From contig NZ_CANNGO010000001.1 of NCBI RefSeq assembly GCF_947504215.1, forward strand, positions 124,001 through 188,000: a stretch of 64,000 bases of DNA, given 5' to 3'. The stretch is from an uncultured Ruegeria sp. GTDB lineage: Bacteria; Pseudomonadota; Alphaproteobacteria; Rhodobacterales; Rhodobacteraceae. Both the position numbers and the translations under genes were made by a program. The stretch's first letter is position 1; each line of letters begins with the position of its first letter. Below, in pieces: positions 9,396 through 54,477 of the stretch. The notes under the pieces were generated by a model. It did no database searches. It saw nothing but the letters and a program-made list of their open reading frames with translations, and was not told the origin of the DNA.

Positions 9396-9398
9396 CTG

Positions 9399-38688: not shown

Positions 38689-39189
38689 ATGACCGAAAGA
38701 ACCTTCTCACCCGGCCCGGATCAAAGCGGCGCGTTCCGCGAGGCATTGGGATGTTTCGGCACCGGCGTAACCGTTATCACGACAGATACCGGAAACGGCC
38801 CGCGCGCGATTACCGCAAACTCGTTTTCGTCGGTGTCGCTTGATCCGCCTTTGGTCTTGTGGTGTCTCGCCAAAGACTCCAACCGCTTTAATGCGTTCAG
38901 TAAGTGCCAACACTATTCCATCCATGTCATGGCGCAGGATCAACAGGATCGCGCCTTGAAATTCGCCCGCGACGGAACAGATTTCTCGCACGCTGAATGG
39001 CGAACGGATGACGCCGGACGTCCGCAATTGACCAATTGCCTGGCGCGGTTTGATTGTCACCTGCACGCCCGACACGAGGCAGGTGACCACCTGATTGTGG
39101 TCGGCCATGTGGACCAGGTGATGTATCGCACCGGCAAAGGTCTGATCTTCAAGCGCGGCCAGTTCGGTGGCTTTGTCGACTTGATCTAA
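38689..39189 (+). CDS. Flavin reductase family protein
   Basis: 166-residue flavin reductase domain protein of the FMN-binding split-barrel type. The conserved start FREALGCFGTGVTVITT, then ITANSFSSVSLDPPLVLWCLAKDSNRF (about 45-72), bind FMN; the end GLIFKRGQFGGF is typical. It would supply reduced flavin to a monooxygenase, none of which is in the window. The ATG at 38689 gives the family length; an ATG at 38653 is an alternative and neither has a strong ribosome site. Its stop overlaps that of the convergent DUF6505 gene by four bases. Confidence 0.88.
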   Translation: MTERTFSPGPDQSGAFREALGCFGTGVTVITTDTGNGPRAITANSFSSVSLDPPLVLWCLAKDSNRFNAFSKCQHYSIHVMAQDQQDRALKFARDGTDFSHAEWRTDDAGRPQLTNCLARFDCHLHARHEAGDHLIVVGHVDQVMYRTGKGLIFKRGQFGGFVDLI

Positions 39190-39665
39190 TCGTCCAGCGA
39201 GCCGTGAACGGCCAACGCCTCCAATTCGGCCTCTTGCGGGGTGATCACCCGAAACGCTTCGCGTACACCTGTGTCCGTCAACTCACGTGCAACTGTCAGC
39301 AATGTATTTGGATCGTGGTCATCGCAAAGCTCTGACATATGGTCAATTTCAGCTTGCGCGACGCCCATTGCGGCCTCGGCTGACGGTGCGCCATAGAATT
39401 GCACAAAATGCTCGGCCAGGTTCTGTTTTGCCCGTTCGATTTCCGCTGGTTCAATCTGTGTCACGGCCACGAAGGTGACGCGCCCGAAAGTGTCCAGACC
39501 CAGCCAGCCGTTGGCGAAAGCCTGACGTGGCTTTCCTTCCAGATCCCCCGGGCCCCAGTTGGAAAACTCGAACCCGCCCGAGATGCACCATTCACCCGTG
39601 CGTGCAGGAGAGTGAAAGACGTTCATATCACTTTCATCAAAGTGAATAGCACGGGCCAATTTCAT
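39186..39665 (-). CDS. DUF6505 family protein
   Basis: 159-residue soluble acidic protein beginning MKLARAIHFDESDMNVFHSPARTGEWCISGGFEF. I recognise the pattern as DUF6505, a family of unknown function in alphaproteobacteria, with WGPGDLEGKPRQAFANGWLGL in the middle. It overlaps the stop of the upstream ligase-like gene by four bases (ATGA) and so is translationally coupled to it and probably to the Mrp gene. No catalytic motif is evident. Confidence 0.7.
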   Translation of the reverse strand: MKLARAIHFDESDMNVFHSPARTGEWCISGGFEFSNWGPGDLEGKPRQAFANGWLGLDTFGRVTFVAVTQIEPAEIERAKQNLAEHFVQFYGAPSAEAAMGVAQAEIDHMSELCDDHDPNTLLTVARELTDTGVREAFRVITPQEAELEALAVHGSLDD

Positions 39666-40360
39666 CGGTCAGTCTCCAGCAATTGTGTGAGAGGGCGCAG
39701 ATGCGTGTCTGATCCATTCCGGATGAGCATTCCAAACCGCTCATCCGTTCCTAGAAAGACACCCTCTTCTCCCAGCGGTTCTCCGACGCCTTGCAGCAAT
39801 CCCAGCCATTCGCTGTGCAAAGGTGCATTGCCATCCTGTTGCCAGCGGTTCAGCCAGGTCAGCATGTGGCGTGACCAGCTTTCGACCAGCTGTGAGGCCG
39901 ACACATCTGCGCATCCCTCGTCATAAAGCGCTGTGACGTCCGGCGTATCTCCGGGGGCATCACTGGTCTGCAACAAGGACAGTTCCCACCCCACAACAAG
40001 CCAATCGGGAAAATCTGTCGGCTCGGTCGTGGACGCTGCAACATCGAACTGCCCACATTTGGCACCGTTCACGCAGATCAGCCCGTCCCACCCAAGATGC
40101 ACTGCAACTTCGGGTGGGGCCAAAGCGCCCAGCGCGTTCTGAAACCCTACTGCGCATAAGGGCAACATCGCCATCGCATCCTGCAAGGAAACCTCGGGGG
40201 CGAACACGATGGCTACACGCAGCCTGTCAGCCTGGATGTTGTAAACAACGGCCCCTGCATCGCACCCGAGTGCGGCCATTGACTGCGCGCGCTCAAAGGG
40301 GTCTTCCCCTCCCTGCACAGGGTGGCCTGACAGCAATGGCGGGAAGACGAGCTCGCTCAT
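39662..40360 (-). CDS. Biotin/lipoate protein ligase-like protein (DUF4444)
   Basis: 232-residue protein of the biotin/lipoate ligase superfamily with a C-terminal DUF4444-type domain (about 180-228, GVFLGTDERFGMLIRNG). The central core EVAVHLGWDGLICVNGAKCGQFDVA keeps the NG-K-G pattern around the catalytic-loop lysine but reads WDG in place of the usual WPND. The N-terminal GRGRxGR substrate loop is missing. It may therefore have a changed or lost ligase activity. It sits between Mrp and DUF6505, overlapping each by four bases. Confidence 0.72.
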   Translation of the reverse strand: MSELVFPPLLSGHPVQGGEDPFERAQSMAALGCDAGAVVYNIQADRLRVAIVFAPEVSLQDAMAMLPLCAVGFQNALGALAPPEVAVHLGWDGLICVNGAKCGQFDVAASTTEPTDFPDWLVVGWELSLLQTSDAPGDTPDVTALYDEGCADVSASQLVESWSRHMLTWLNRWQQDGNAPLHSEWLGLLQGVGEPLGEEGVFLGTDERFGMLIRNGSDTHLRPLTQLLETDR

Positions 40361-41418
40361 GCAACGCCTTTTGTGATCAGATCGCGCGCAATTTTTCGGA
40401 ACGCTTCGGCCTGTTGGCTGTCAGGCTTGCTGACCACGATTGGTGCGCCACCGTCCGCGGCAACGCGGATATCCAGATGCAGTGGGATCTCTCCCAATAA
40501 CGGAACGCCCAGCGTTTCGGCCTCTGATGCAACGCCGCCATGGCCGAACACATGCTCTTCGTGCCCACAGTTCGAGCATATGTGCGTGGACATGTTCTCG
40601 ATCATTCCGACGATTGGTGTCTTGAGCTGGTTGAACATGTCGATCCCCTTACGAGCGTCGATCAACGCTACATCCTGCGGGGTTGAAACCACAATGGCAC
40701 CATCCACTTTGAACTTTTGGCTCAGCGTCAGTTGCACGTCGCCGGTCCCGGGCGGCAGGTCCACGATCAGAACGTCCAACGCGCCCCACTGGACCTGGCT
40801 CATCATTTGTTGCAAAGCGCCCATCAACATAGGTCCCCGCCAGACAACGGCCTGCCCTTCGTTGGTCATCAGCCCCATCGACATCATTGTGACGCCATGA
40901 TTGCGCAGCGGCAGGATTGTCTTGCCATCCGGGCTGGCTGGACGACCAGAAACCCCCAACATCCGGGGTTGCGACGGGCCATACACGTCAGCATCCAACA
41001 GACCGACACGACGTCCTTCTGCGGCCAGTGCACAGGCGAGGTTGGCTGAGACAGTAGACTTGCCCACACCACCCTTGCCAGAAGCTACGGCAATGATCCG
41101 ATCTACGCCGGGCACGGCTTGCGGACCAGTTTCCGACGGCCGAGGCTTGGGCTTCAATTCAGGCGGCGCCTTGTCCGAATGCGCCGTCATCATCGCCGAC
41201 ACGTTACCAACACCCTCAACCATCTGTGCGGCCTGTTCGGCGGCAGCACGCACTGGCTCCATCCGTTCGGCCTGCTTGGGATCGACCTCAAGCACAAAGC
41301 GGACGGTATCGCCTTCAACATTCAACGCGCGCACCACGCCAGCGCTGACAATATCCTGCCCGGATACGGGGTCGGTGATCTTTTTCAGGTTCGCAAGAAC
41401 CGCATCGCGGACACTCAT
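40357..41418 (-). CDS. apbC: Mrp/NBP35 family iron-sulfur carrier ATPase
   Basis: 353-residue P-loop ATPase of the Mrp/ApbC family, which carries and inserts Fe-S clusters. An N-terminal MIP18-like domain (about 1-80) is followed by the deviant Walker A GKGGVGKST (about 112-120). The switch DADVYGPSQPRML and VDLPPGTGDVQL are family signatures. The cluster-binding CSNC motif (about 283) is present. It leads a three-gene operon with the ligase-like and DUF6505 genes. The nearby formate dehydrogenase with many Fe-S clusters is a possible client, though Mrp is generally housekeeping. Confidence 0.93.
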   Translation of the reverse strand: MSVRDAVLANLKKITDPVSGQDIVSAGVVRALNVEGDTVRFVLEVDPKQAERMEPVRAAAEQAAQMVEGVGNVSAMMTAHSDKAPPELKPKPRPSETGPQAVPGVDRIIAVASGKGGVGKSTVSANLACALAAEGRRVGLLDADVYGPSQPRMLGVSGRPASPDGKTILPLRNHGVTMMSMGLMTNEGQAVVWRGPMLMGALQQMMSQVQWGALDVLIVDLPPGTGDVQLTLSQKFKVDGAIVVSTPQDVALIDARKGIDMFNQLKTPIVGMIENMSTHICSNCGHEEHVFGHGGVASEAETLGVPLLGEIPLHLDIRVAADGGAPIVVSKPDSQQAEAFRKIARDLITKGVA

Positions 41419-41526: not shown

Positions 41527-42255
41527 ATGCGCTTTGTCCTTTTGTGCCTGAGCCTGACGCTCACCGCCAGCCCCTCTTGGTCGCAAGAGGCAATTGGCCT
41601 CGCCGCCCCGGCCGAGGTTTCGGGATCTGGCCTGTTGCAACATATTCTGCCCCGCTTCTCTCTCAAGACCGGCATACGCGTGATCGCAGATGAATCCGGT
41701 ACAATGTCCATTACGACTACACCATCCGGAAACCCTGTCTTTGCCCGTGACGGGATTATCTACCACCTGAACATTGACGACGATCCCCGTCAGGATCGGT
41801 TCCGCGAGTGGATGCTGTCCGATATCGGCAAGCGTACAATCGAAAGCTATGCGCCCCCTCAGGGCTCGGCGTTCAGCGCGAGTTTTGAAATCATTGCAAC
41901 AGAAGAAACCACGACCTTGGATGGTGACGCTGTATTGGGCGAGAAGCTGTCGATGACCCATTGCGGGCGATGCCATGTGATCGGACCCAAAAACCGAATG
42001 AACGGTTTGGGTTCGACCCCGTCTTTTGCCGTGTTGCGCGCCATGCCGGATTGGTCGGATCGATTTGAAGCGTTCTTTGCATTGAACCCCCACCCGGCGT
42101 TTACGCAAATCGACGGGATCACGCCTCCTTTTGACCCGGAACGTCCCTCGCCCATTTATCCGGTTGAAATGTCGGTGGACGATCTTGAGGCGATCCTCGC
42201 CTTTGTCTCGGTCATCAGCGCAGCCGATCTGGGCGCGCCTTTGCAGCATCAGTGA
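41527..42255 (+). CDS. c-type cytochrome fused to a reduced TupA-like binding domain
   Basis: 242-residue periplasmic protein. The signal peptide ends at SWSQ (residue 20). Residues 34-52 (SGLLQHILPRFSLKTGIRV) closely match the start of the TupA tungstate-binding protein at 53638-54456 (SGLLDFILPGFEAETGIEV). Residues 71-108 (FARDGIIYHLN ... RFREWMLSDIGKRTIESY) match TupA's end. About 145 residues that form most of both lobes in TupA are missing. A class I haem site CGRCH follows (Cys146, Cys149, His150). The ATG at 41527 starts the signal; the frame is open upstream but over the divergent Mrp gene. Its stop overlaps that of the convergent polyferredoxin gene. Confidence 0.85.
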   Translation: MRFVLLCLSLTLTASPSWSQEAIGLAAPAEVSGSGLLQHILPRFSLKTGIRVIADESGTMSITTTPSGNPVFARDGIIYHLNIDDDPRQDRFREWMLSDIGKRTIESYAPPQGSAFSASFEIIATEETTTLDGDAVLGEKLSMTHCGRCHVIGPKNRMNGLGSTPSFAVLRAMPDWSDRFEAFFALNPHPAFTQIDGITPPFDPERPSPIYPVEMSVDDLEAILAFVSVISAADLGAPLQHQ

Positions 42256-44204
42256 TCTTTCCGTTTTGAAAGATAATCGTCTGTCGTGACGACACGTGGC
42301 TTTGGTTTGGATTGAAACGGATTATCCTTAAGCTGAAACTGCGCATTCACCCTGCAATCATCGCACATCTGGATCATGCGCGCCTGCTCGGACGTGGCAA
42401 ACATCGGGTGTGTTCCTGACAGCTTGTCCATAATGCGCTCGACCGTCGACTTGACCCCAAACAAAGCGCCGCATTCGACACAGGCAAATGGTTCCTCTTC
42501 ATTCAGCACTTGCTGTGACAAGGCCGCATCACTCAGATCAAATTGGGGAACCAGGGTTATGGCAGTCTCGGGGCAAATCGTCCGGCACAGCCCACATTGC
42601 AGGCACGCGTCTTGCTGAAAGTTCAGCTGCGGCGTGTCCGGATTATCGATCAACGCACCCGAAGGGCACAGCGATACACAGCTGAGGCACAATGTGCAGG
42701 CGTCAGTATCTACCGCAACGGCCCCATAGGGCGCATCTTTCGGCAGTGGCAGCGGGGCCTCGGCCTGTGGGTTCAACGCTTGTGCAGCAAGCCGTGCGAT
42801 CTGTCTGCGATTGCCCAGCGGTAACACCGGATCGGCCAACGGGGCCGGAACCATTTGGTCATAAAGACGGTCAGACATTGCATCGGGATCGGCGTCATCA
42901 ATCAGGCCCAATCCAGCGTCTCCGGCGATGGCCTGCGCCAGCTCAAGCTCACGATCCAACGCATCCCGTTCGGTTGTTGGCGACAACAGGACATCGACCC
43001 GCGCAAACCCATGCGCTAAAGCGGCGAGCATCTCGGCATGGCCAAATCCTGAAATCACGCCAAGCTCCAAGGGGATGACATCCGCTGGCAAGCCCCGTCC
43101 AAAGCGGGCGGCCAGGCGGATCTTCTCGGCCCCATTTGCATCATGCACCAACAAACGCGGTGCGACACCGCCCGCGTGGCGGTAACTGCGGGCCAGAATG
43201 TGCATCCGTGACAGCAGCGCCGATACCGGAGGATCTTCATATGTGATTGCGGTTGAAGGGCAAATCGCAGCGCACGCTCCGCACCCGGCGCAAACCATTG
43301 GATCGATTGAGACATGTTCACCCGCGGGTGTGATCGCCCCAGTTGGACAGATATCCAGACAGTTCGTGCAAGCAACCTGTTCGGCCCGGGAATGAGCGCA
43401 CAAGGTTTCTTCCATGCGGACGTATAAGGGTTTCTCAAAAGTTCCGACCAGTTGCGCCGCTTCAAACGCCAAACGTTCAACTGCAATTGTATCTCGGGGG
43501 TCGGCGCGCAAATAGCCTTCGCGTTTGGCCGGGGCCGACACAAAAGCCTTTCCCCCGGTTAGGTCTATCAGGATGTCACAAGACGACCGTGCACCGTCCC
43601 TAGGGTCGGTCCAGCCAAACGGGCCACGCCCACCAGGTTCAAGTTGTTGCAACGCATCCAGATTGATCAAAAAACCACCCAATGCGCCTTGGACCGCCCG
43701 AACCTGGCCGCGGACCACGTCATAAACGCGCGAAACAGGCTGAGAGTCATCTGAAACCACGACCGTGACAGCCAGCGTTGCAGACAGCCGCTCTGCCAGG
43801 TCAAACGCCACATCTCCAGGACCGATAATACAACAGGTGCCTTCGCTCATCACATCTACGCTTTGTGTGACCGGCAGCGGTAAAAGGGCCTCGGCAGCCA
43901 GGGCGGCCATCTTCGCGGACGCATCCTGCCCTTGTTCCGACCATCCCGCGCGGTCGCGCAGATCGACAAAAGCTGGGGTTTCCATGTCCAGATCTGCAGC
44001 GAGATCGCAAAACACATCCTGTTCCTGACCACAGGCGATCAGAACGGCTTCGCCATCTTTCATAAGCTCAGCAGCGGTGCTCATTTCGCGAGTACACAAA
44101 GCGGTATGGACCTTCGAGCAAGCGACATCACAGGCTAAAGCGATCTGGTCCGCATCCAGTGATTGCGTCCCCTCGCAATCACAGAGCAATAGTTTGGTTA
44201 CCAT
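42249..44204 (-). CDS. Polyferredoxin of the formate dehydrogenase locus
   Basis: 651-residue soluble protein with at least four 4Fe-4S sites in two pairs. The first pair includes CTNCLDICPTGAI and CAGCGACAAICPSTAI (about 280-325); the second includes CTLCLSCVSLCPSGAL and CLQCGLCRTICPETAI (about 515-565). The C-terminus has a CVEC ... CDDC zinc-ribbon-like pair, and the N-terminus LLLCDCEGT has further cysteines. This family accompanies alphaproteobacterial formate dehydrogenases with DUF3305/DUF3306. The ATG at 44204 follows GGGGGAGGG. It is divergent from the DUF3305 gene, with the fdh promoter region between. It may carry electrons for cofactor assembly or sulfur handling; function is not known. 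Confidence 0.85.
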   Translation of the reverse strand: MVTKLLLCDCEGTQSLDADQIALACDVACSKVHTALCTREMSTAAELMKDGEAVLIACGQEQDVFCDLAADLDMETPAFVDLRDRAGWSEQGQDASAKMAALAAEALLPLPVTQSVDVMSEGTCCIIGPGDVAFDLAERLSATLAVTVVVSDDSQPVSRVYDVVRGQVRAVQGALGGFLINLDALQQLEPGGRGPFGWTDPRDGARSSCDILIDLTGGKAFVSAPAKREGYLRADPRDTIAVERLAFEAAQLVGTFEKPLYVRMEETLCAHSRAEQVACTNCLDICPTGAITPAGEHVSIDPMVCAGCGACAAICPSTAITYEDPPVSALLSRMHILARSYRHAGGVAPRLLVHDANGAEKIRLAARFGRGLPADVIPLELGVISGFGHAEMLAALAHGFARVDVLLSPTTERDALDRELELAQAIAGDAGLGLIDDADPDAMSDRLYDQMVPAPLADPVLPLGNRRQIARLAAQALNPQAEAPLPLPKDAPYGAVAVDTDACTLCLSCVSLCPSGALIDNPDTPQLNFQQDACLQCGLCRTICPETAITLVPQFDLSDAALSQQVLNEEEPFACVECGALFGVKSTVERIMDKLSGTHPMFATSEQARMIQMCDDCRVNAQFQLKDNPFQSKPKPRVVTTDDYLSKRKDH

Positions 44205-44464
44205 ATCCCTCCCCCGGACAGCTTCCATTCTAACAGGACATTAGGCTGTACCCCCCCAGACGCAATGTAAACCCTGCGGGCCACGTCGTTTTCAACAACC
44301 CGACACATCGTTAACACCTAAAAACAGGGGCGTCCGACAACAAGATCACGAATACGTAACCACTTCTAAGACTAAGGTCGTACACTGCGGGCTTGGCACG
44401 AGGCCATTTTGTGTACCATAGTGGACGCAGGGGAAGGCTGGGGAGAGCCTTCCGGGGAGGACGC

Positions 44465-45019
44465 GTGGCAAAAGCCGCAAGCCAAATCGAAATGCCTGTT
44501 GGCGTAATCGTGCGCAAGACACCCGGCGTGACCCGTTGGGCAAAATGGTGCTGGCGCGCGGTTGCCGCCTTGCCCGGTGCCGGACCCGCCGATTGGCAGG
44601 AGTTGCGGCGCGAAGGCGACGCCATCGAATACCATGCCGCCACACTGCCCCTGGTGCTTTGGGCTGACGAGGCTGAGGCCTATATGGTCAACCTTTCTGA
44701 CGGGCAGCCTTCGATCTATCTGGTCCTGCGGGATGAGATAAATGGTGAGCGACCGATGGACGCTGTTTTGATCACAGCCTCTCCGTTCGAAGGTCAGGAT
44801 TATGCTGATACCGGCGAAGAGATTGTAGAGAAGATCCCGATGTCCGAAGGCCTGATCGCCTGGGTTCGGGATTTCGCCTTGGAACATCATCGTGATGAGG
44901 TTTTCGTCAAGCGCCGTCGCGACAAGAAACGGACGGACCTTGTTGAAGACGGCAAAGGCGACGCACGCATCCGGCAAGACTCGGACGTGTACCGCGCCCC
45001 GCGGAGGGTCGTGCAATGA
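44465..45019 (+). CDS. DUF3305 family protein
   Basis: 184-residue soluble protein beginning at a GTG, which has GGGGAGG directly before it; upstream frame is not conserved. It matches DUF3305: IEMPVGVIVRKTPGVTRWAKWCWRAVAALPGAG near the start, LWADEAEAYMVNLSDGQPSIYLVLRD in the middle, and the tail KRRRDKKR with an RAPRRVVQ end. Such proteins are coded next to formate dehydrogenase genes; their role, presumably enzyme maturation, is unproven. It overlaps the DUF3306 start by ATGA. Confidence 0.85.
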   Translation: MAKAASQIEMPVGVIVRKTPGVTRWAKWCWRAVAALPGAGPADWQELRREGDAIEYHAATLPLVLWADEAEAYMVNLSDGQPSIYLVLRDEINGERPMDAVLITASPFEGQDYADTGEEIVEKIPMSEGLIAWVRDFALEHHRDEVFVKRRRDKKRTDLVEDGKGDARIRQDSDVYRAPRRVVQ

Positions 45020-45594
45020 GCGAAGCCCGCGATTTCTGGTCCCGCCGCAAAGCCGCCGTTCAGGCCGAGGTTGACGCCGAGCACGCAGCTGTCGAGGCAC
45101 AGGTTGTCGCCGCGCAGCAGGCTGAGCTTGAAGAAAAGACCGATGCCGAGATACTGGCAGAGCTCGACCTGCCCGATCCGGACGAGTTGCAAGCAGGTGA
45201 CGATGTCTCAGGCTTTATGGCCAAAGCAGTGCCTGACCGCCTGCGTCGCCGCGCATTACGCCGGTTGTGGCGGCTAAACCCTGTTCTGGCCAATGTGGAC
45301 GGGCTGGTGGATTACGGTGAAGATTACACTGACGCCGCCTGCGTAGTCGAAAACCTGCAGACCGCCTACCAGGTTGGCAAGGGAATGCTGGCTCATATCG
45401 AAGCTTTGGCTGCCGCCGAAGACAAAAGCGAACCCGAGGTGGAAGCTGAACCCGAGCCGCTGGAGCCAGAAGAAGAGACGACCCCAGACCCTGCGCCACC
45501 TGCGCAGACCGTCGAATTGGCGCACGCGGACGAGGTTGAAGAAGCCGAAATTGCCCCTGCTCCGCGTCGTATGACATTTGAATTTGAAGGATAA
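45016..45594 (+). CDS. DUF3306 family protein
   Basis: 192-residue protein, the regular partner of DUF3305. It starts FWSRRKAAVQAEVDAE and has the conserved PDRLRRRALRRLWRLNPVLANVDGLVDYGEDYTD (about 75-108). The last 55 residues are a Glu/Pro/Ala-rich tail of low complexity ending in RRMTFEFEG. It is translationally coupled to DUF3305 and followed four bases later by the TorD-like chaperone. A function in formate dehydrogenase maturation is inferred from context only. Confidence 0.85.
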   Translation: MSEARDFWSRRKAAVQAEVDAEHAAVEAQVVAAQQAELEEKTDAEILAELDLPDPDELQAGDDVSGFMAKAVPDRLRRRALRRLWRLNPVLANVDGLVDYGEDYTDAACVVENLQTAYQVGKGMLAHIEALAAAEDKSEPEVEAEPEPLEPEEETTPDPAPPAQTVELAHADEVEEAEIAPAPRRMTFEFEG

Positions 45595-45598
45595 CGAA

Positions 45599-46210
45599 AT
45601 GGCCGCAAACAACGCACAAAATCTGGAGGTTTCGGCCGAGGATCGCCTGCGCGCGGATTTCTACAATTTTCTCGGATTGCTGCTCTCAGGTCCGCCCGAT
45701 CAGATGTTGCTAGATCAGATGCGCGGGCTGTCGGGGGATGAAACAGATTTGGGACAGGCCATCCAGGCGATGGCCCGTGTTGCCAAGGTGACCAAACCGC
45801 CAGCGGCTGACCGCGAGTTCAACGCCCTTTTCATCGGCCTTGGACGCGGAGAGCTTCTGCCTTACGCCAGCTTCTACCTGACAGGGTTCCTGAACGAAAA
45901 GCCATTGGCGCAGTTGCGCAACGATATGGCCGCGCGCGGCGTGACGCGCGCCCAGAATGTGTTCGAACCCGAGGATAACATCGCCTCGCTGATGGAGATG
46001 ATGGCCGGAATGATCGTGGGCCGATTTGGCGCTCCCGCTTCGTTGGATGAGCAAAAAGAGTTCTGGAACAAGCACATCGGCCCGTGGGCCGCGCATTTCT
46101 ATTCGGATTTGGAAGCCGCTGAAAACTCGGTTCTCTATGCCTCGGTCGGTACGGCCGGTCGGGTCTTTATGGAGATCGAACGTGAAGCGTTTCGAATGAC
46201 GGCGGCCTAG
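45599..46210 (+). CDS. TorD family chaperone of formate dehydrogenase
   Basis: 203-residue all-helical protein of the TorD/DmsD chaperone family. It shows DRLRADFYNFLGLLLSGPPD near the start and the family motif EFNALFIGLGRGELLPYASFYLTGFLNEKPLAQLRNDM (about 75-113), where the P-Y-S-Y type segment reads PYASFY; EPEDNIASLMEMMAGMI follows. Such chaperones bind the Tat signal of the molybdoenzyme subunit until its cofactor is inserted. The ATG at 45599 follows AAGGA and is preferred over one at 45578. It precedes the small Tat peptide and fdhA, its likely client. Confidence 0.9.
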   Translation: MAANNAQNLEVSAEDRLRADFYNFLGLLLSGPPDQMLLDQMRGLSGDETDLGQAIQAMARVAKVTKPPAADREFNALFIGLGRGELLPYASFYLTGFLNEKPLAQLRNDMAARGVTRAQNVFEPEDNIASLMEMMAGMIVGRFGAPASLDEQKEFWNKHIGPWAAHFYSDLEAAENSVLYASVGTAGRVFMEIEREAFRMTAA

Positions 46211-46267
46211 CCCGCCATTCACCGGTACCCGACGGGTGCCACACCGCAAATGGGAAAGGAGACCCCC

Positions 46268-46456
46268 ATGAGCAAGACCAAGGAAGAAGGTGCCACGCGC
46301 CGCGACTTCCTCAAACTGGCCGGAACCGCAGCGCCCGCTGCCGTTGCCGCAGTCAGCCTGAGCGGAGAGGCCGAAGCAGCAGAGCTGCCGACGGATGAGA
46401 CCCGCATGCAGGACACCGCGCACACGCGCGCATACCTGGACAGCGCCCGGTTCTAA
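46268..46456 (+). CDS. Small twin-arginine signal peptide protein
   Basis: 62-residue protein, essentially a Tat signal plus a short tail. The motif RRDFLKLAG at about 13-21 is followed by an alanine-rich stretch (APAAVAAVSLSG) and AEAAELP. Only about 30 residues would remain after cleavage. GGAG precedes the ATG at 46268. It lies between the TorD-like chaperone and fdhA and is recognised as a small protein typical of formate dehydrogenase loci. It may escort a subunit through the Tat system or bind the chaperone; it is not a broken gene as far as can be seen. Confidence 0.8.
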   Translation: MSKTKEEGATRRDFLKLAGTAAPAAVAAVSLSGEAEAAELPTDETRMQDTAHTRAYLDSARF

Positions 46457-46561
46457 ACCGGACGGCGTCATACCCGACAGACGGTTGCGATTGGCCCTGA
46501 CGTCGGTTTCGAGAAGTACCAAGCCAGCCATGGCTTACATGGCCAGCAAGGGAGGAAAGAA

Positions 46562-49456
46562 ATGCTTAGGAAAAAGACCAACGGGGTTGCGAGACGCCCC
46601 CAGCGGACAAGTATCCTGTCCCAGGTCGGCGAGAAAACCGTCGATCGCCGCGCGTTCCTGCGTGGCTCGGGCCTGACGATCGGCGGCCTTGCCGCGATCA
46701 GCGCTACGGGTGGAACCGTGACGCCGGCCAGCGCCCAGACAGCGGCCAATCAGGCCGTCGAAAACATCAAATCAGTCTGCACCCACTGCTCAGTGGGCTG
46801 TACCGTCGTTGCCGAAGTGCAGAACGGCGTCTGGATCGGGCAGGAACCCGGCTGGGACAGCCCCTTCAACCTGGGTGCGCACTGCGCCAAGGGGGCCTCG
46901 GTCCGCGAGCACGCCCATGGCGAACGCCGTCTGAAGTATCCGATGAAAAAGGAAGGCGGCGAGTGGAAGCGCATCAGCTGGGAAGAGGCGATCAACGAGA
47001 TCGGCGACGGCATGATGTCTATTCGTGAAGAATCCGGCCCTGACAGTGTCTATTGGCTAGGATCCGCGAAGCATAACAACGAACAGGCTTATCTGTTCCG
47101 CAAATTCGCCGCCTATTGGGGCACGAACAACGTGGATCATCAGGCCCGTATCTGCCACTCGACCACCGTTGCGGGTGTTGCGAACACATGGGGCTACGGC
47201 GCCATGACCAATTCGTACAACGACATCCATAACTCCAAAGCCATCTTCATCATCGGCGGCAACCCGGCCGAGGCGCATCCGGTCTCACTGCTGCACGTTC
47301 TGCGCGCGAAAGAGCAGAACAATGCACCGCTGATCGTCTGCGACCCGCGCTTTACCCGCACCGCAGCGCATGCAGATGAATATGTCCGCTTCCGCCCCGG
47401 CACCGATGTGGCGCTGATTTGGGGGATGCTGTGGCATATCTTCGACAACGGCTGGGAGGACAAAGAGTTCATCCGCACCCGTGTCTGGGGCATGGATCAG
47501 ATCCGTGAAGAGGTCGCCAACTGGACGCCGGAAGAGACCGAGCGCGTCACCGGCGTACCGGGTTCACAGCTGAAACGCGTGGCGCGGACTATGGTCAACA
47601 ACCGCCCCGGCACCGTGATCTGGTGTATGGGTGGCACCCAGCATACCAATGGCAATAACAACACCCGCGCCTATTGCGTGCTGCAGCTTGCGCTTGGCAA
47701 CATGGGCACCTCGGGTGGTGGCACCAACATCTTCCGCGGCCATGACAACGTGCAGGGCGCGACAGATCTTGGTGTTCTGTCCCATACCCTGCCCGGGTAT
47801 TACGGCCTGTCGAAGGGCGCATGGGGCCATTGGGCACGCGTTTGGGGCGAAGAACCCGATTGGCTGGCTGGTCAGTTCGCCACGATCAAGGACAAGGAGG
47901 GCAAGGACAAACCGCTGCAAAATGAGCGCGGCATCCCGGTCTCTCGCTGGATCGATGGTGTTCTGGAAGACCCCGGAAATATGGATCAGGACAACAATGT
48001 CCGCGCCATGGTTCTTTGGGGGCACGCACCGAACTCGCAAACGCGCGGGACGGAAATGAAGACGGCGATGGAAAAGCTGGACATGCTGGTCGTTATCGAC
48101 CCGTACCCGACTGTTTCTGCCGTTATGCATGACCGCACCGATGGCGTTTATCTGCTGCCGGCCTGTACGCAGTTCGAAACCCGTGGCTCGGTCACGGCCT
48201 CGAACCGCTCGCTGCAGTGGCGCGATAAGGTGGTCGATCCGCTGTTCGAAAGCCTGCCGGACGAGGTCATCATGGCCAAGTTCGCCAACAAGTTTGGCTG
48301 GGCCGACCGCTTCTTCCGCAATATCGAGATGGAAGACGCCGAGACCCCGAATGTCGAGAGCATCACGCGCGAGTTCAACTCGGGCCTCTGGACCATCGGC
48401 TATACCGGTCAGTCGCCGGAGCGTTTGAAAAGCCATATGGCCAACCAGCACACGTTTGACAGAACCACGCTGCAGGCGATTGGTGGCCCGAACGACGGCG
48501 AATACTACGGCCTCCCCTGGCCTTGCTGGGGTACGGCAGAGATGGGTCATACAGGGACACCAAACCTCTATGACATGTCGAAACCGGTGGCCGAAGGTGG
48601 TCTGACCTTCCGCGCCCGTTTTGGCGTGGAACGGGACGGTGACAACCTGCTGGCTGAAGGGGTCTATAGCGTCGGATCGGAAATTCAGGATGGTTATCCC
48701 GAATTCACGATGCAGATGCTGATGGACCTTGGCTGGGACGGAGGCCTAACGTCCGAGGAACGCGCGGCAATCGACGCCGTTGCGGGGCCGGAAACCAACT
48801 GGAAAACCGACCTGTCCGGCGGCATCCAGCGGGTTGCAATCGAGCATGGCTGTGCGCCCTTCGGGAACGCCAAGGCCCGCGCGGTTGTCTGGACCTTCCC
48901 GGATCCAATCCCACTGCATCGCGAACCGCTCTACACGAACCGGCGCGATCTGGTTGAGGACTATCCGACCTACGAGGACCGTCAGGCCTATCGCCTACCC
49001 ACGCTTTACGCATCGATTCAAAAGAACGACTTTTCAAAGGATTATCCAATAATCCTCACGTCTGGTCGTCTGGTCGAGTATGAGGGCGGCGGCGATGAGA
49101 CACGGTCAAACCCGTGGCTGGCTGAACTGCAACAGGACATGTTCGTCGAGATCAACCCGCGCGATGCCAACAATCTGGGCATTCGTGACGGGGCACAGGT
49201 CTGGGTCGAAGGTCCCGAGGGCGGCAAGGTCAAGGTAATGGCGATGCTGACCAACAGGGTCGGTGCCGGCGTGGCCTTCATGCCGTTCCACTTTGGCGGC
49301 CATTTCCAGGGCGAGGACCTACGGGACAAGTACCCCAAAGGCGCCGACCCCTATGTACTGGGTGAAGCTAGCAACACCGCCCAGACCTATGGCTATGATT
49401 CAGTGACCCAGATGCAGGAGACCAAAGCCACTCTCTGCAAGATCTGGTCAGCGTAA
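46562..49456 (+). CDS. fdhA: Formate dehydrogenase alpha subunit
   Basis: 964-residue molybdopterin (Mo or W) oxidoreductase that oxidises formate to CO2. A Tat motif VDRRAFLRGSGL (27-38) is followed by the signal to about residue 59. The first 4Fe-4S site is Cys73, Cys76, Cys80 and Cys108. The metal-ligand cysteine is Cys198 in RICHS, beside His199, so this is the cysteine, not the selenocysteine, form; the codon is TGC. The body contains the bis-MGD binding regions (IFIIGGNPAEAHP and the C-terminal LTSGRLVEYEGGGDETRSNPWLAELQQDMFVEINP). AAGGGAGG precedes the ATG. It is exported with the Fe-S subunit. Confidence 0.96.
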   Translation: MLRKKTNGVARRPQRTSILSQVGEKTVDRRAFLRGSGLTIGGLAAISATGGTVTPASAQTAANQAVENIKSVCTHCSVGCTVVAEVQNGVWIGQEPGWDSPFNLGAHCAKGASVREHAHGERRLKYPMKKEGGEWKRISWEEAINEIGDGMMSIREESGPDSVYWLGSAKHNNEQAYLFRKFAAYWGTNNVDHQARICHSTTVAGVANTWGYGAMTNSYNDIHNSKAIFIIGGNPAEAHPVSLLHVLRAKEQNNAPLIVCDPRFTRTAAHADEYVRFRPGTDVALIWGMLWHIFDNGWEDKEFIRTRVWGMDQIREEVANWTPEETERVTGVPGSQLKRVARTMVNNRPGTVIWCMGGTQHTNGNNNTRAYCVLQLALGNMGTSGGGTNIFRGHDNVQGATDLGVLSHTLPGYYGLSKGAWGHWARVWGEEPDWLAGQFATIKDKEGKDKPLQNERGIPVSRWIDGVLEDPGNMDQDNNVRAMVLWGHAPNSQTRGTEMKTAMEKLDMLVVIDPYPTVSAVMHDRTDGVYLLPACTQFETRGSVTASNRSLQWRDKVVDPLFESLPDEVIMAKFANKFGWADRFFRNIEMEDAETPNVESITREFNSGLWTIGYTGQSPERLKSHMANQHTFDRTTLQAIGGPNDGEYYGLPWPCWGTAEMGHTGTPNLYDMSKPVAEGGLTFRARFGVERDGDNLLAEGVYSVGSEIQDGYPEFTMQMLMDLGWDGGLTSEERAAIDAVAGPETNWKTDLSGGIQRVAIEHGCAPFGNAKARAVVWTFPDPIPLHREPLYTNRRDLVEDYPTYEDRQAYRLPTLYASIQKNDFSKDYPIILTSGRLVEYEGGGDETRSNPWLAELQQDMFVEINPRDANNLGIRDGAQVWVEGPEGGKVKVMAMLTNRVGAGVAFMPFHFGGHFQGEDLRDKYPKGADPYVLGEASNTAQTYGYDSVTQMQETKATLCKIWSA

Positions 49457-49471
49457 GGAGGAATAGAGAAA

Positions 49472-50068
49472 ATGGCAGCAAGAGCAAAATTTCTCTGCGA
49501 CGCCGAACGCTGCATCGAGTGCAATGCCTGCGTCACCGCGTGTAAGAACGAGCACGAGGTGCCGTGGGGCGTGAACCGCCGCAGGGTGGTGACGATCAAT
49601 GACGGTGACCCGGGCGAACGCTCGATCTCGGTGGCCTGTATGCATTGCTCGGACGCGCCTTGCATGGCGGTGTGCCCGGTCGACTGCTTCTATCAGAACG
49701 AGGAAGGGGTCGTCCTGCATTCCAAGGACCTGTGCATTGGCTGTGGTTATTGCTTCTATGCGTGCCCGTTTGGCGCGCCGCAATACCCACAGGCGGGCAA
49801 CTTCGGATCACGCGGCAAGATGGACAAATGTACCTTCTGCGCCGGCGGCCCTGAAGAAACGCACTCGACCGCAGAGTTCGCCAAATATGGTCGCAACCGG
49901 ATCGCCGAGGGCAAACTGCCCATCTGCGCCGAGATGTGTTCCACCAAGGCCCTGCTCGCCGGTGACGGCGATGTTGTCTCGGCAATCTACCGCGAGCGCG
50001 TCGTCGCGCGCGGGTTTGGTTCGGGCGCTTGGGGCTGGGGCACCGCCTACGATCAGAAAGACGGCTAA
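49472..50068 (+). CDS. fdhB: Formate dehydrogenase iron-sulfur subunit
   Basis: 198-residue ferredoxin-like subunit with four 4Fe-4S sites: [11 protein letters not shown] (14-24), [26 protein letters not shown], and CTFC with the later CAEMC. It passes electrons from the active site in FdhA to the cytochrome b subunit. It has no signal of its own, so it should ride through the Tat system on FdhA. There is no C-terminal membrane helix of the FdnH type. It lies 15 bases behind fdhA, and a strong hairpin separates it from the cytochrome gene. Confidence 0.95.
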
Positions 50069-50088
50069 GACCGCTTTCATTGACCAAA

Positions 50089-50116
50089 CAGGCGACCCGC
50101 AAACGTGGGTCGCCTG
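50089..50116 (+). promoter_or_regulatory. Strong intercistronic hairpin between fdhB and fdhC
   Basis: Ten-base perfect stem CAGGCGACCC / GGGTCGCCTG with an eight-base loop, 20 bases after the fdhB stop and 25 bases before the fdhC start. No T tract follows, so it is not a normal terminator. It is probably a processing or stability element that keeps more fdhAB than fdhC message. Confidence 0.7.
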
Positions 50117-50141
50117 ATCTGGAATTTTGACCGAGGTTCAG

Positions 50142-51350
50142 ATGTTCCGCTTACTCATCGCATTTCTGTTCACCGTTGGATTGACTCAGAGCGCTATTGC
50201 GCAATCGAGCGACAATGAAGTCGTCACACAGACCGACGAACGCACCTCGACCGGAGGCGCGACGACGTTGGAAGACATTCTCGCGCGGCAACGTGGCGAG
50301 AAGGTGGACAACAGTTACCGTTCCGAGAACACCGGGCAAGGCAATGTCGAAGGCCTTATGGGTCAGTTTGGCGCCCGTGGTGTGGCGTCGGACAGCGATG
50401 TCTATCGGGCGCTTCGTTATGGATCGGCTGATGTAACCGTGTCATCCCGAGGGCCCGCCGATAGCGTTTTGATTCAGGATGGCGGTATGTGGTGGCTGAG
50501 CTTTCGCACTGGCCCCTTGCGTGACTACGGAACTTATATTCTCGGCGGTATGCTCGTTGTCTTGCTGTTGTTTTTCCTGATCCGTGGGAAAATCAGAATT
50601 GATGGCGAGAAAACGGGGCGGACCGTGACCCGCTTTAACGGCTTCGAACGGTTCGGCCACTGGCTGTTCGCCGGGTCGTTTCTTGTATTGGGCGTTACCG
50701 GCCTGCTGACACTTTATGGCCGCGACTTCCTGATCCCTATCTTCGGAAAAGAAGCCTTCGCGATGATCGCCCAAGGGTGCAAGTGGCTGCACAACAACCT
50801 TGCCTGGGCATTCATGCTGGGCCTGGTGATTGTCACCGTGAACTGGATTGCGCATAACATACCCAACCGCACAGACCTGAAATGGCTGGCCGCCGGCGGC
50901 GGGTTGTTCACCAAGAACAGCCATCCCCCAGCCAAGAAATTCAATGCCGGGCAAAAGATCATTTTCTGGCTTTGCATTCTTCTGGGCGTATCGATCAGCC
51001 TGTCGGGCCTCTCGCTGCTGTTTCCGTTCGAGATGCCGCTGTTTGCTAAGACGTTCTCAATTGCCAACTCAACCGGCCTGCCCCAGATGCTGGGCCTGAG
51101 CCTTCCCGCGCAGATGTCACCTCAGGAAGAAATGCAGTATGCCCAGCTCTGGCACGTGATCGTGGCCTATGCGTTCATCGCGATCATCCTTGCACACATC
51201 TATCTTGGATCAGTGGGCATGGAAGGTGCGTTTGATGCCATGGGCACCGGCGAAGTCGAAGAACAATGGGCCCGCGAACATCATTCGCTATGGCTTGAAG
51301 AAGTTCAGGAAAAAGAGGCCAGCAAGGCATCGGCCTCACCCGCCGAATAG
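50142..51350 (+). CDS. fdhC: Formate dehydrogenase cytochrome b subunit
   Basis: 402-residue membrane cytochrome. A signal peptide (to AIAQ, about residue 21) leads a 115-residue periplasmic domain (about 22-135) that is absent from E. coli FdnI. Five hydrophobic segments follow: one at about 132-150 and four in the cytochrome b561-type core, with FNGFERFGHWLFAGSFLVLGVTGLL, CKWLHNNLAWAFM and LWHVIVAYAFIAIILAHIYLGSVGMEGAFDAM holding the haem histidines. It should pass electrons to quinone. The ATG at 50142 follows GAGG. The stop touches the start of the WD40-cytochrome gene with no gap. Confidence 0.93.
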   Translation: MFRLLIAFLFTVGLTQSAIAQSSDNEVVTQTDERTSTGGATTLEDILARQRGEKVDNSYRSENTGQGNVEGLMGQFGARGVASDSDVYRALRYGSADVTVSSRGPADSVLIQDGGMWWLSFRTGPLRDYGTYILGGMLVVLLLFFLIRGKIRIDGEKTGRTVTRFNGFERFGHWLFAGSFLVLGVTGLLTLYGRDFLIPIFGKEAFAMIAQGCKWLHNNLAWAFMLGLVIVTVNWIAHNIPNRTDLKWLAAGGGLFTKNSHPPAKKFNAGQKIIFWLCILLGVSISLSGLSLLFPFEMPLFAKTFSIANSTGLPQMLGLSLPAQMSPQEEMQYAQLWHVIVAYAFIAIILAHIYLGSVGMEGAFDAMGTGEVEEQWAREHHSLWLEEVQEKEASKASASPAE

Positions 51351-52607
51351 ATGCGGGGATTGGTGCTGGTCCTGGCGCTGCTGCCCCTGCCCTCCTGGGC
51401 AGAGTTCTTTACTCTGAAAGGGCATGGCGGACCGATCATGGGGATCGCCACTGCACCTGATGGACGCATTGCAACTGCCAGTTTTGACAATTCCGTCGGA
51501 CTGTGGACCGGGCAGACCCCGGAATGGCTGGAAGGGCATGAGGCCGCGGTGAACTCGGTCGCCTTCAACGGCACCGCGATCTACTCTGCAGGGGACGATT
51601 TCACCCTGCGCCGTTGGCCCGGTGGTGGGATCGTCGGTCAACATAAGGGCAAGATTGTCGGTTTGGCCGCCTCGAAAACCCATGTCGCCACTGCAAGCTG
51701 GGATGGAACGATTGGTCTTTGGCCGGTGGATGGGTCCGATCCACAAACGCTTGGCCCAACCGGCAGTGGCGTCAACGCTGTGGTGTTTTCGCCCGATGGG
51801 TCAGAACTCTATTCAGCGGGAATGGACGGAGCCTTGCGCATTTGGGATGTGTCCAACGGACAGGAAACAAACCGATTGGTGGAACATGGATTCGGCATCA
51901 ATGAGCTTATTTTAAACGCGCAAGACAATTGGATCGCGTATGGCGCAGTCGATGGCGTGACCCGCATTCTAGACCTGGAAACCGGGGAAGAGCGCGACTT
52001 CACATTGGACCGACGCCCGATCCTGGCGCTTGCCCTCAGCCCTGACCGAAGTCTTTTGGCCGTTGGGGATGGCGAAGGCTACATCATGGTCATCGACACC
52101 GCCGAATGGCGCATCGCTCAGGATTTCCGGGCAACCTTGCGTGGACCGGTTTGGGCGCTGGCTTTTTCGGTCAATGGCGAGAATCTTCATGCAGGCGGCA
52201 TTGATGAGGCTATGTACAGCTGGCCGGTTACCGCCTTATCAGATCAGAAACAAATGGCGGCAGCGGAACCAAGCTTTCTGAAAAACCCTGAAAAAATGGG
52301 GAATGGGGAACGGCAGTTTTCCCGAAAATGCTCGATCTGTCATAGTCTAACGCCAGATAGTGTGCGACGCGCTGGCCCAACCCTTCATGGCATCTTTGGG
52401 CGATCTGCTGGAACGCTGCCGGGATATTTGTACTCGGATACGCTGCAAGACTCTGATATCATTTGGAATGACGAGACGATAAATGCCCTTTTCGACGAGG
52501 GCCCAGACCACTACATTCCGGGATCGAAAATGCCGATGCAAAGGATTGCCCAACCGCAGGACCGAGCCGATCTGATCGCCTTTCTGCGCCGTGCAACGGC
52601 AGACTAA
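51351..52607 (+). CDS. WD40-repeat c-type cytochrome
   Basis: 418-residue periplasmic protein. The signal peptide ends at SWAEFF (residue 17). WD40 blades fill about 20-300, with repeated SPDG and (A/G)LRIWD-like ends such as GALRIWDVSNGQE and DGTIGLWPVDG. A class I cytochrome c domain fills about 312-415: the haem site CSICH has Cys327, Cys330 and His331, and Met394 in GSKMPMQ is the probable distal ligand. It starts at the base after the fdhC stop. A beta-propeller docked to a haem domain suggests an electron acceptor or a protein-binding sensor on the formate dehydrogenase complex. Confidence 0.9.
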   Translation: MRGLVLVLALLPLPSWAEFFTLKGHGGPIMGIATAPDGRIATASFDNSVGLWTGQTPEWLEGHEAAVNSVAFNGTAIYSAGDDFTLRRWPGGGIVGQHKGKIVGLAASKTHVATASWDGTIGLWPVDGSDPQTLGPTGSGVNAVVFSPDGSELYSAGMDGALRIWDVSNGQETNRLVEHGFGINELILNAQDNWIAYGAVDGVTRILDLETGEERDFTLDRRPILALALSPDRSLLAVGDGEGYIMVIDTAEWRIAQDFRATLRGPVWALAFSVNGENLHAGGIDEAMYSWPVTALSDQKQMAAAEPSFLKNPEKMGNGERQFSRKCSICHSLTPDSVRRAGPTLHGIFGRSAGTLPGYLYSDTLQDSDIIWNDETINALFDEGPDHYIPGSKMPMQRIAQPQDRADLIAFLRRATAD

Positions 52608-52752: not shown

Positions 52753-53625
52753 ATGTCCGAATATCTGACCACCCGGGAACTGGCCGATCTTCTGCGCATT
52801 GGCGAGCGGAAGGCCTATGACCTTGCTTCATCCGGCGAGGTCCCTTGTGTCCGCGCCATGGGGAAGCTGCTGTTTCCCAGAGCCGAAGTCATCGCCTGGC
52901 TCAATGCCTCACGCTCGGGTCCGCAGGTGGCGGAACCGCCTCTGCCCCCGATCGTCGCAGGCAGCCACGACCCTTTGCTGGACTGGGCGCTGCGAGAAAG
53001 CGGATCAGGTTTGGCCACCTATTATGACGGCTCATTCGACGGGCTAAGCCGCCTTGGCGCCCGCACGGCTCAGGCTGCCGCCCTGCATATCCACGAGGAA
53101 CACGGGTTCAACACGCAATCCTTGCGCGATGCGCTCGGCGAAGCGCCGGTGGTTCTGTACGAAGTGTCCCGAAGAGAACGCGGATTGCTGCTGGCACCCG
53201 GTATCTCGGATATCGCGGGGTTCGACGACCTCAAAGCCCGTCGGGTCGTCTTGCGCCAAAACAGCGCCGCCAGCCAGCGGCTGTTTGATGCGCAGCTTGA
53301 GGCGCATGGAATGACCAGAGACGATCTGGAGACCCTACCCACCTGCGCCCGTACCGAAGAAGAACTTGCCGTCGCCCTTTACGACAGCAAAGCTGATGCT
53401 GGATTTGGCTTGGGTGCGTTAGCGGGGCTGTACGGGTTGGGCTTTGTGCCCACCCACACTGAACGGCTTGACCTGGCGATCTGGCGACGCGCCTATTTTG
53501 ATCCGCCGATGCAGAAGCTGTTACGCTTCATGCAGTCTGATCGGTTTGCACAAAGATCCGCTGAATTTGGCGGCTATGATCTGGCGCAGATGGGAAGCGT
53601 TCACCACAATGGCGCCAGCGGATGA
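52753..53625 (+). CDS. HTH regulator with molybdate-binding-like PBP domain
   Basis: 290-residue cytoplasmic regulator. The N-terminal excisionase/MerR-like helix-turn-helix is EYLTTRELADLLRIGERKAYDLASSGEVPC, followed by MGKLLFPRAEVIAWL. The rest (about 75-285) is a PBP-like domain of the COG1910 type, found in proteins that sense molybdate or tungstate, with LLDWALRESGSGLATYYDGSFDGL and ADAGFGLGALAGLYGLGFVP. There is no signal peptide, so binding is intracellular. It directly follows the 41-residue peptide and converges with tupA. It is the probable oxyanion-responsive regulator of fdh or tup genes. Confidence 0.82.
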   Translation: MSEYLTTRELADLLRIGERKAYDLASSGEVPCVRAMGKLLFPRAEVIAWLNASRSGPQVAEPPLPPIVAGSHDPLLDWALRESGSGLATYYDGSFDGLSRLGARTAQAAALHIHEEHGFNTQSLRDALGEAPVVLYEVSRRERGLLLAPGISDIAGFDDLKARRVVLRQNSAASQRLFDAQLEAHGMTRDDLETLPTCARTEEELAVALYDSKADAGFGLGALAGLYGLGFVPTHTERLDLAIWRRAYFDPPMQKLLRFMQSDRFAQRSAEFGGYDLAQMGSVHHNGASG

Positions 53626-53637
53626 GCACAGCGCTGT

Positions 53638-54456
53638 TCATTCACCGGCGTTTGGGAAGAAAACCTGCTGCCCATCCAACATGTAGGACGCGATCGCCGC
53701 TTGCCCGTCCGGTCCGATCAGCCAATCAATAAACCGCTGCCCGGCATTTGCCCGCACGTGCGGGTGAGTTGTTGGGTTGACCAGGATGACGCCATATTGG
53801 TTGAACAGGCGCGTGTCTCCTTCGACGAGTACCTCAAGGCTGCCTTTGTTGCCGAAGGACAGCCATGTTGCCCTGTCGGTCAGGGCATACGCATCCATTC
53901 CGCTGGCAACATTCAACGTGGCACCCATGCCGGATCCGGTTTCCCGGTACCACGTGCCTGATGCGTCTGTTGGGTCAACACCAGCAGCGCTCCAATGGCC
54001 CATCTCGGCCTTGTGCGTTCCGCTGTCGTCCCCGCGCGAAACAAACGGCGCTTCGGCTGCTTCGATGGCGGTCAATGCAGTCAATATGTCAGCCCCTCCC
54101 CCAACCGCAGCCGGATCGGACTTAGGTCCAACCAGAATGAAGTCGTTGTACATGAGGTCAAACCGCTCGACCCCCCAGCCGTCGGCGACAAACTTTTCTT
54201 CATCAGGCTTGGAATGGACCATCAAGACATCACCGTCACCGTTGACGGCATTTCTGATGGCCTGACCCGTTCCCACTGCGACTACACGCACTTCGATCCC
54301 GGTTTCCGCCTCAAACCCTGGCAGAATGAAATCCAACAGGCCCGAGTTCTGGGTCGAGGTTGTGGATTGAACCACTATGAAAGGCTCCTCGGCCCAAGCG
54401 GGTCCAACCACCAGCCCAAGGGTCACCAATGCCGCCAGAATGCAATCCCGGAACAT
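53638..54456 (-). CDS. tupA: Tungstate ABC transporter binding protein TupA
   Basis: 272-residue periplasmic protein of the TupA family. The signal ends at AWAEE (residue 23). The binding loop VVQSTTSTQNSGLLDFILPGF (about 28-48) has the TTST motif of TupA, and GTGQAIRNAVNGDGDVLMVHS follows. SRGDDSGTHKAE (about 145) and the ending RFIDWLIGPDGQAAIASY are typical. It takes tungstate with high affinity, which fits a formate dehydrogenase using tungsten. The ATG at 54456 is used over a TTG three bases upstream. It is last in the tupBCA operon and converges with the regulator gene. Confidence 0.93.
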   Translation of the reverse strand: MFRDCILAALVTLGLVVGPAWAEEPFIVVQSTTSTQNSGLLDFILPGFEAETGIEVRVVAVGTGQAIRNAVNGDGDVLMVHSKPDEEKFVADGWGVERFDLMYNDFILVGPKSDPAAVGGGADILTALTAIEAAEAPFVSRGDDSGTHKAEMGHWSAAGVDPTDASGTWYRETGSGMGATLNVASGMDAYALTDRATWLSFGNKGSLEVLVEGDTRLFNQYGVILVNPTTHPHVRANAGQRFIDWLIGPDGQAAIASYMLDGQQVFFPNAGE

Positions 54457-54477
54457 CAAATTCTCCGTCTCTTTGTT

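Follow-up and report, generated by a model that had tools for sequence, protein, structure and literature searches.

Within a window of 64,000 nucleotides from an uncultured Ruegeria sp. (the whole stretch of DNA that was analysed), a forward-strand gene at 41527..42255 encodes a protein of 242 amino acids, in which one lobe (lobe A) of the tungstate-binding protein TupA is joined to a mono-haem cytochrome c domain. The gene is defined by its open reading frame (ORF) and by matches to a family found in 132 of 390 genomes of the order. The lobe has lost the known tungstate ligands, one of its helices is under very strong constraint, and the gene is linked to the locus of the formate dehydrogenase FDH3. 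On balance we regard the product as probably a periplasmic mono-haem cytochrome c of the FDH3 locus, whose TupA-derived part acts as a docking module and would not bind tungstate in the manner of TupA.

Homology of the N-terminal domain to TupA

The domain in question comprises residues 21-118, about 98 residues (41587..41880, forward strand), and its full-length relative in the same window is the TupA encoded on the reverse strand at 53638..54459 (PF12849, E = 7e-46), which scores 209.7 bits against NF041772, the TupA equivalog model, without reaching its cut-off of 400. A sequence-only reading of this DNA had set residues 34-52 of the fusion protein parallel to TupA 38-56 and residues 71-108 parallel to the TupA C-terminus, with roughly 145 residues missing in between and a CGRCH haem site following. 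The first pair of segments is identical at 12 of 19 positions (the TupA segment is SGLLDFILPGFEAETGIEV, residues 39-57 if counted from the first start codon and 38-56 from the next ATG), residues 71-108 and the ORF coordinates are as claimed, about 142 residues are absent by alignment, and CGRCH is present at residues 146-150. With our own anchoring on the hhalign alignment, the two arms are separated by 14 residues in the fusion and by about 156 in TupA.

For the statistics, 74 family members from the loci of relatives were aligned, of which 69 are full fusions; L080, L081, L117, L118 and L123, which lack the full fusion, are excluded from all counts over 69 members. Compared by hhalign with 64 TupA sequences, the domain (a profile of 68 out of 69 submitted sequences) matches globally across all 102 columns with P = 4.2e-12 and locally with P = 1.4e-8. 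Both halves exceed every one of 200 column shuffles, with a score of 44.2 against at best 18.7 for the N-terminal part and 55.6 against at best 22.4 for the C-terminal part. A blind profile search of 177,635 PDB sequences returned 3muq (E = 3.9e-5), 5my5 (5e-4), 3cvg (1.5e-3), 3lr1 (0.02) and 3kn3 (0.11), all TupA relatives, at ranks 1, 2, 3, 5 and 6; rank 4 was the unrelated chain 4g23 (E = 0.0056). When the genome itself was searched blindly in six frames, the fusion was followed only by matches to either end of TupA (E = 3e-4 and 2e-3), the next match having E = 0.89. In nine genomes searched likewise, all matches at E ≤ 0.1 were to TupA once the family and a scar of it in one genome (G436) are set aside; eight of the nine gave matches at both ends of TupA, and in the ninth (G824) the matches were confined to the C-termini of two copies of TupA.

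The alternative that this is a cytochrome c of the usual kind, extended at its N-terminus by unrelated sequence whose likeness to TupA is due to chance or to an annotation artefact, could appeal to the silence of the family databases: neither Pfam nor NCBIfam names anything in the N-terminal part of the window protein, and NCBIfam gives no match to the protein at all up to E = 10, so that it does not qualify as TupA by NF041772. The hhalign, PDB, own-genome and nine-genome searches, together with the structural superposition described below, all contradict this alternative; chance similarity is ruled out by the four profile searches, and we give the whole explanation practically no credence. 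The similarity of the N-terminal domain to TupA is thus above chance and, judged from the profiles, is homology. The history proposed in the sequence-only reading, in which a TupA ancestor lost its middle and, next to a formate dehydrogenase, became fused with a haem domain, is upheld.

Predicted fold and loss of the tungstate ligands

The AlphaFold2 (AF2) model has a predicted local distance difference test score (pLDDT) of 90-95 by block over residues 21-120, and shows the alpha/beta fold of lobe A of a type II periplasmic binding protein. By the alignment and the model alike there is a single lobe only; the two lobes and the cleft of a complete type II binding protein are not present. In the model, the N- and C-terminal arms of TupA together rebuild most of lobe A, with lobe B missing. 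The description of the domain as collapsed does not hold, since a well-defined lobe is predicted. Foldseek alone found nothing with this model at E ≤ 0.001, though its two best rows were TupA-type structures; superposition with VIA-align, which re-aligns the top 1000 chains of Foldseek (and thus is not an independent search) and reports only the first and last aligned residues, gave a clear Z for the match to type II binding proteins.

Two sets of ligand positions have been lost. In none of the 69 members are the aligned positions 28-30, where TupA has its TTTS motif, all occupied by S or T. The ligand residues of TupA are given in PMC5517513 as H59, R118, T124 and D170; the stretch that holds them, which covers lobe B and H59 of lobe A, is deleted in the fusion according to the hhalign alignment. 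As far as can be judged from the residues present, the lobe should no longer bind tungstate in the TupA manner. The sequence-only reading had suggested that the protein might sense oxyanions. A remnant that still bound tungstate, molybdate or a cofactor, and signalled this through the haem, would suit both the descent from a tungstate-binding protein and the position of the gene next to the locus of a molybdenum/tungsten enzyme; however, TTTS is absent in 69/69 members, and without lobe B and R118/T124/D170 a two-lobe cleft cannot form. Because the ligand residues are gone, tungstate sensing was dropped as the leading idea, and we consider a sensor of this kind very unlikely.

Selection and conservation

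The ratio of nonsynonymous to synonymous polymorphism (pN/pS) was calculated for 48 distinct sequences with identity of at least 66%; this set replaced an earlier one of 37 sequences, which lacked the K38 members. The lowest value among the regions measured in the fusion protein, 0.026, belongs to helix alpha-1 (residues 35-49, GLLQHILPRFSLKTG; 41629..41673, forward strand), followed by 0.034 for the haem stretch 146-167, 0.138 for the cytochrome domain, and 0.565 for the fast-evolving linker of residues 119-132 (41881..41922, forward strand). Within the helix, P42, R43 and F44 are found in 69/69 members and K47 in 99%. At the equivalents of R43 and K47, TupA has no strongly conserved residue, the commonest one accounting for 23% and 58% of 64 TupA sequences, respectively. 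Across 24 Ruegeria genomes the TupA segment equivalent to the helix (38-56) has pN/pS = 0.075/0.750, about 0.10, and the windows of lowest pN in TupA are 57-68 (GTGQA; 0.007), 141-152 (with R118 and T124; 0.009) and 27-38 (TTTS; 0.011). The strongest constraint therefore falls on helix alpha-1 in the fusion and on other sites in TupA. Since the parts that grip tungstate have been lost and yet one helix is strictly conserved, the lobe has probably been given a second use, in docking.

Synonymous change is itself unusually low in two stretches of the gene: in the set of 37 sequences pS was 0.14-0.16 for codons 1-18 (41527-41580) and 0.31 for codons 37-48 (41635-41670). The cause may be codon use, or signals that regulate the divergently transcribed mrp.

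The cytochrome domain

Residues 1-20 (41527..41586, forward strand) form a putative signal peptide, judged by eye, in a region of low model confidence. The mono-haem cytochrome c domain occupies residues 133-242 (41923..42252, forward strand). Its match to PF00034 covers residues 136-228 and is below the Pfam cut-off (18 bits against 21.3; E = 0.0073). Assignment as a c-type cytochrome is based on the CxxCH motif, which is invariant; export is suggested by the leader. In the haem-binding CGRCH (residues 146-150; 41962..41976, forward strand), C146, R148, C149 and H150 are the same in 69/69 members. The fusions have no invariant methionine; H189 (42091..42093, forward strand) is instead invariant in all 69, and thirteen out of thirteen single-domain relatives have a PH pair 42-43 residues past the first Cys of CxxCH. 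This pattern of residues points to H189 as the distal haem ligand and to a cytochrome that is possibly bis-His. A search of the PDB with the cytochrome profile found nothing significant.

Linkage to the FDH3 locus

The gene stands between a divergent mrp/NUBPL-type iron-sulphur carrier (40357..41418, reverse strand; PF10609) and a convergent polyferredoxin (42249..44228, reverse strand; Fer4 domains), which opens the FDH3 cluster. The latter continues at 44393..51350 (forward strand) with DUF3305, DUF3306, a TorD-like protein (PF02613), a small ORF with a twin-arginine translocation (TAT) leader, FdhA, FdhB (NF038355) and FdhC. Among 53 mapped loci, including one with an interrupted fusion gene, mrp is the divergent neighbour in every case, 68-576 base pairs (bp) away, and the polyferredoxin is the next mapped gene in 48, at a distance of at most 158 bp in 46 of these; two of the five loci without it as neighbour sit at contig ends. 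Twenty FDH3 loci without the gene were also examined. The gap between mrp and polyferredoxin is 111-391 bp in nineteen of them, the rearranged L193 being left out; a C..CH due to chance occurs in one out-of-frame ORF of L186, directed towards the polyferredoxin gene, and two of the loci (L194, L195) belong to genomes with a single-domain cytochrome elsewhere.

The family was sought in 390 genomes of the order, of which 139 gave matches; removal of 7 with TupA only left 132 family-positive genomes: the fusion is present in 129, the cytochrome part only in two (G360, G250) and an interrupted gene in one (G337). The FDH3 beta subunit scores above its curated cut-off in 131 of the 132, against 70 of the 258 others, and the one exception, G337, has its interrupted gene near a contig end. 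By co-occurrence and conserved synteny alike, the gene is thus a component of the FDH3 locus. TupA is likewise found in 132/132 family-positive genomes. Since it is also found in 200/201 genomes with FDH3, the primary link of the fusion gene is to FDH3.

These counts bear on the idea of a redox-linked regulator of tungstate uptake, in which the lobe docks on the permease TupB, as lobe A presumably does in TupA, and couples import to the redox state of the haem. The domain derives from TupA, TupA accompanies the family without exception, and tup genes are often near the fusion gene. TupA, however, tracks FDH3, and 127 genomes have it without the fusion family; the residues conserved in the fusion, R43 and K47, are at positions where TupA is not strongly conserved. 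In the window genus, moreover, the fusion gene is found in 53 of the 54 genomes searched, and the 54th (G038) retains only a stop-ridden scar of it, has kept tup, and has no FDH3 above the cut-off. Because the fusion gene follows FDH3 and not tup, we rank uptake control low and hold it to be improbable.

The same linkage would suit a maturation aid, in which the lobe recognises FDH3 during periplasmic assembly and the haem is secondary. There is a precedent in XoxJ, proposed to aid insertion of pyrroloquinoline quinone (PQQ) into XoxF and fused to the cytochrome of that enzyme in some Methylacidiphilum, according to PMC8170126. The haem motif of the family, however, is invariant, and relatives without the lobe exist. 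FdhA, furthermore, has a TAT-type leader by sequence, which makes insertion of its cofactor before export probable. We regard a maturation aid as unlikely, though less so than uptake control.

Several other genes accompany the locus. In all 53 fusion loci mapped, mrp is accompanied by DUF6505 and by a gene of the biotin/lipoate-ligase-like type that includes DUF4444 (39186-40360). A 68-residue ORF with the TAT-type leader TRRDFLKLAG (46250-46456) lies immediately upstream of fdhA. The FDH3 cluster has a second haem protein, a WD40 propeller fused to cytochrome c (51351-52607), whose gene is downstream of fdhC in many, not all, of the mapped loci of relatives. Between the FDH3 and tup genes is a regulator with HTH_17 and PBP_like (PF12727) domains (52753-53625), the latter another domain of the binding-protein type. 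In L082 (at about 9741-10277) and L115 (at about 8570-10423), scars between the fusion and WD40-cytochrome genes look like the result of an excision of the FDH3 cluster that left tup in place.

Distribution and origin

Of 385 genomes searched in the class, 19 gave a match at E ≤ 1e-8. The full fusion is confined to Rhodobacteraceae and a sister family (f80); in the others the match is to a single-domain cytochrome of like kind, except for two matches to TupA. No relative turned up on the viral contigs scanned. Next to tup, G436 bears a scar similar to that of G038, besides an intact copy at another place. Of the 13 single-domain cytochromes from all searches together, seven (L217, L218, L219, L220, L221, L224, L081) are in or near FDH3/tup genes, that of L217 occupying the identical slot between mrp and polyferredoxin; for the other six (L080, L117, L118, L222, L223, L225) there is no FDH3/tup gene in the stretch examined. 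On a cytochrome tree (midpoint root, rough bootstrap, few columns, sixteen close Ruegeria rows omitted) the fusion needs three changes, which are explained by one gain and two losses. The TupA arms were probably received once, in Rhodobacteraceae and the one sister family.

Two clades of TupA can be recognized in Rhodobacteraceae, one window-like (at least 59% identity) and one of 45-53% identity, often upstream of the FDH3 locus (in L131, L138 and others, upstream of DUF6505). Applied to 70 TupA proteins, the domain profile scores 36-49 bits with window-like and extra-family TupA and 9-31 bits with the upstream clade. The higher scores make the window-like clade the better donor, and disfavour a nearby source of the lobe in the tupBCA copies that many roseobacters have upstream.

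Proposed role

In the docking mechanism that we favour, the lobe would dock on a partner through helix alpha-1 and the new R43/K47, and so place the cytochrome on this partner, most likely the FDH3 complex, where the haem (probably through H150/H189) would take or give single electrons. The protein would be an accessory: many FDH3 genomes are without it, and some have a lobe-less relative of the cytochrome.

A number of observations weigh against this proposal. The family is absent from 70 of the 201 FDH3 genomes, about a third; the gene is alone on its strand, outside the fdh operon; and in three of the 53 loci (L121, L122, L126), as well as in L227 of the sister family, it keeps its place by mrp with no polyferredoxin following, although the DNA continues. 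Electrons from FDH3 could reach quinone without a cytochrome c, since the enzyme includes a cytochrome b subunit. The AF2 model is poor in the cytochrome part, which leaves H189 as a candidate ligand. For the whole lobe (residues 21-118) pN/pS is 0.278, and constraint outside helix 35-49 is not strong; synonymous change in codons 35-49 is low too (pS = 0.32 against about 0.6 in the 48 sequences), and part of the constraint may thus be on DNA or codon use. The docking partner itself is a guess. In a broader and more tentative formulation, which we find possible and clearly less probable than the docking module as such, half a binding protein would have become a stable, ligand-free recognition module whose target is FDH3, or else the tungstate permease, and whose cargo is a bis-His cytochrome c; it would tie the redox state of the haem to FDH3 maturation, activity or metal supply. 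This would amount to the conversion of a binding protein into an adaptor at the level of a single lobe.

The family is a clear case of a folded domain that is the sole surviving lobe of a two-lobe binding protein; one helix of it is strictly conserved, and it has probably taken on a new task. A widespread cytochrome of Rhodobacteraceae that had no name (five plasmid records of the gene are annotated as hypothetical protein in four cases and as c-type cytochrome in one) gains a family identity, a likely home in FDH3 formate oxidation and a candidate contact surface.

Comparison with known systems

With TupA of TupABC (PF12849; 5my5, 3lr1, 3muq) the fusion shares both chain ends, homologous by hhalign and by the search of its own genome; it differs in having no lobe B, central strand or named ligand residues, and in having the newly conserved R43 and K47 plus a cytochrome c. 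With class I cytochrome c (PF00034) it shares CxxCH and the weak match already described, and it differs in falling below the cut-off and in having an invariant histidine but no invariant methionine. Cytochrome c550 of photosystem II and cytochrome c549, which are bis-His, are the two PDB matches of the cytochrome profile that span positions 5-98 of 113; they are weak (E = 0.098 and 0.13), not significant, and belong to another system. The single-domain cytochromes of FDH3/tup neighbourhoods have CxxCH, a GSTPSF-like motif and PH at near-fixed spacing in common with the fusion, and differ from it by the absence of the TupA lobe.

The closest likeness of design is to XoxG/J. The sequence-only reading knew of no described family with this design; as a general statement this has to be narrowed, because in PMC8170126 XoxJ is described as a binding-protein relative that is fused to the cytochrome cL XoxG in some Methylacidiphilum. 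Searches of openly accessible literature found no paper on the TupA-lobe family itself. Both proteins, compared by design only, combine a binding-protein-like part with a cytochrome c alongside a one-carbon (C1) dehydrogenase; according to the same paper, XoxG/J serves methanol dehydrogenase, whereas the window fusion is a single TupA lobe beside a formate dehydrogenase. To that extent, the union of a binding-protein relative with the cytochrome of a C1 dehydrogenase is already published, and the TupA-lobe version is new. If separate origins are assumed, binding-protein relatives and C1-dehydrogenase cytochromes may have joined more than once.
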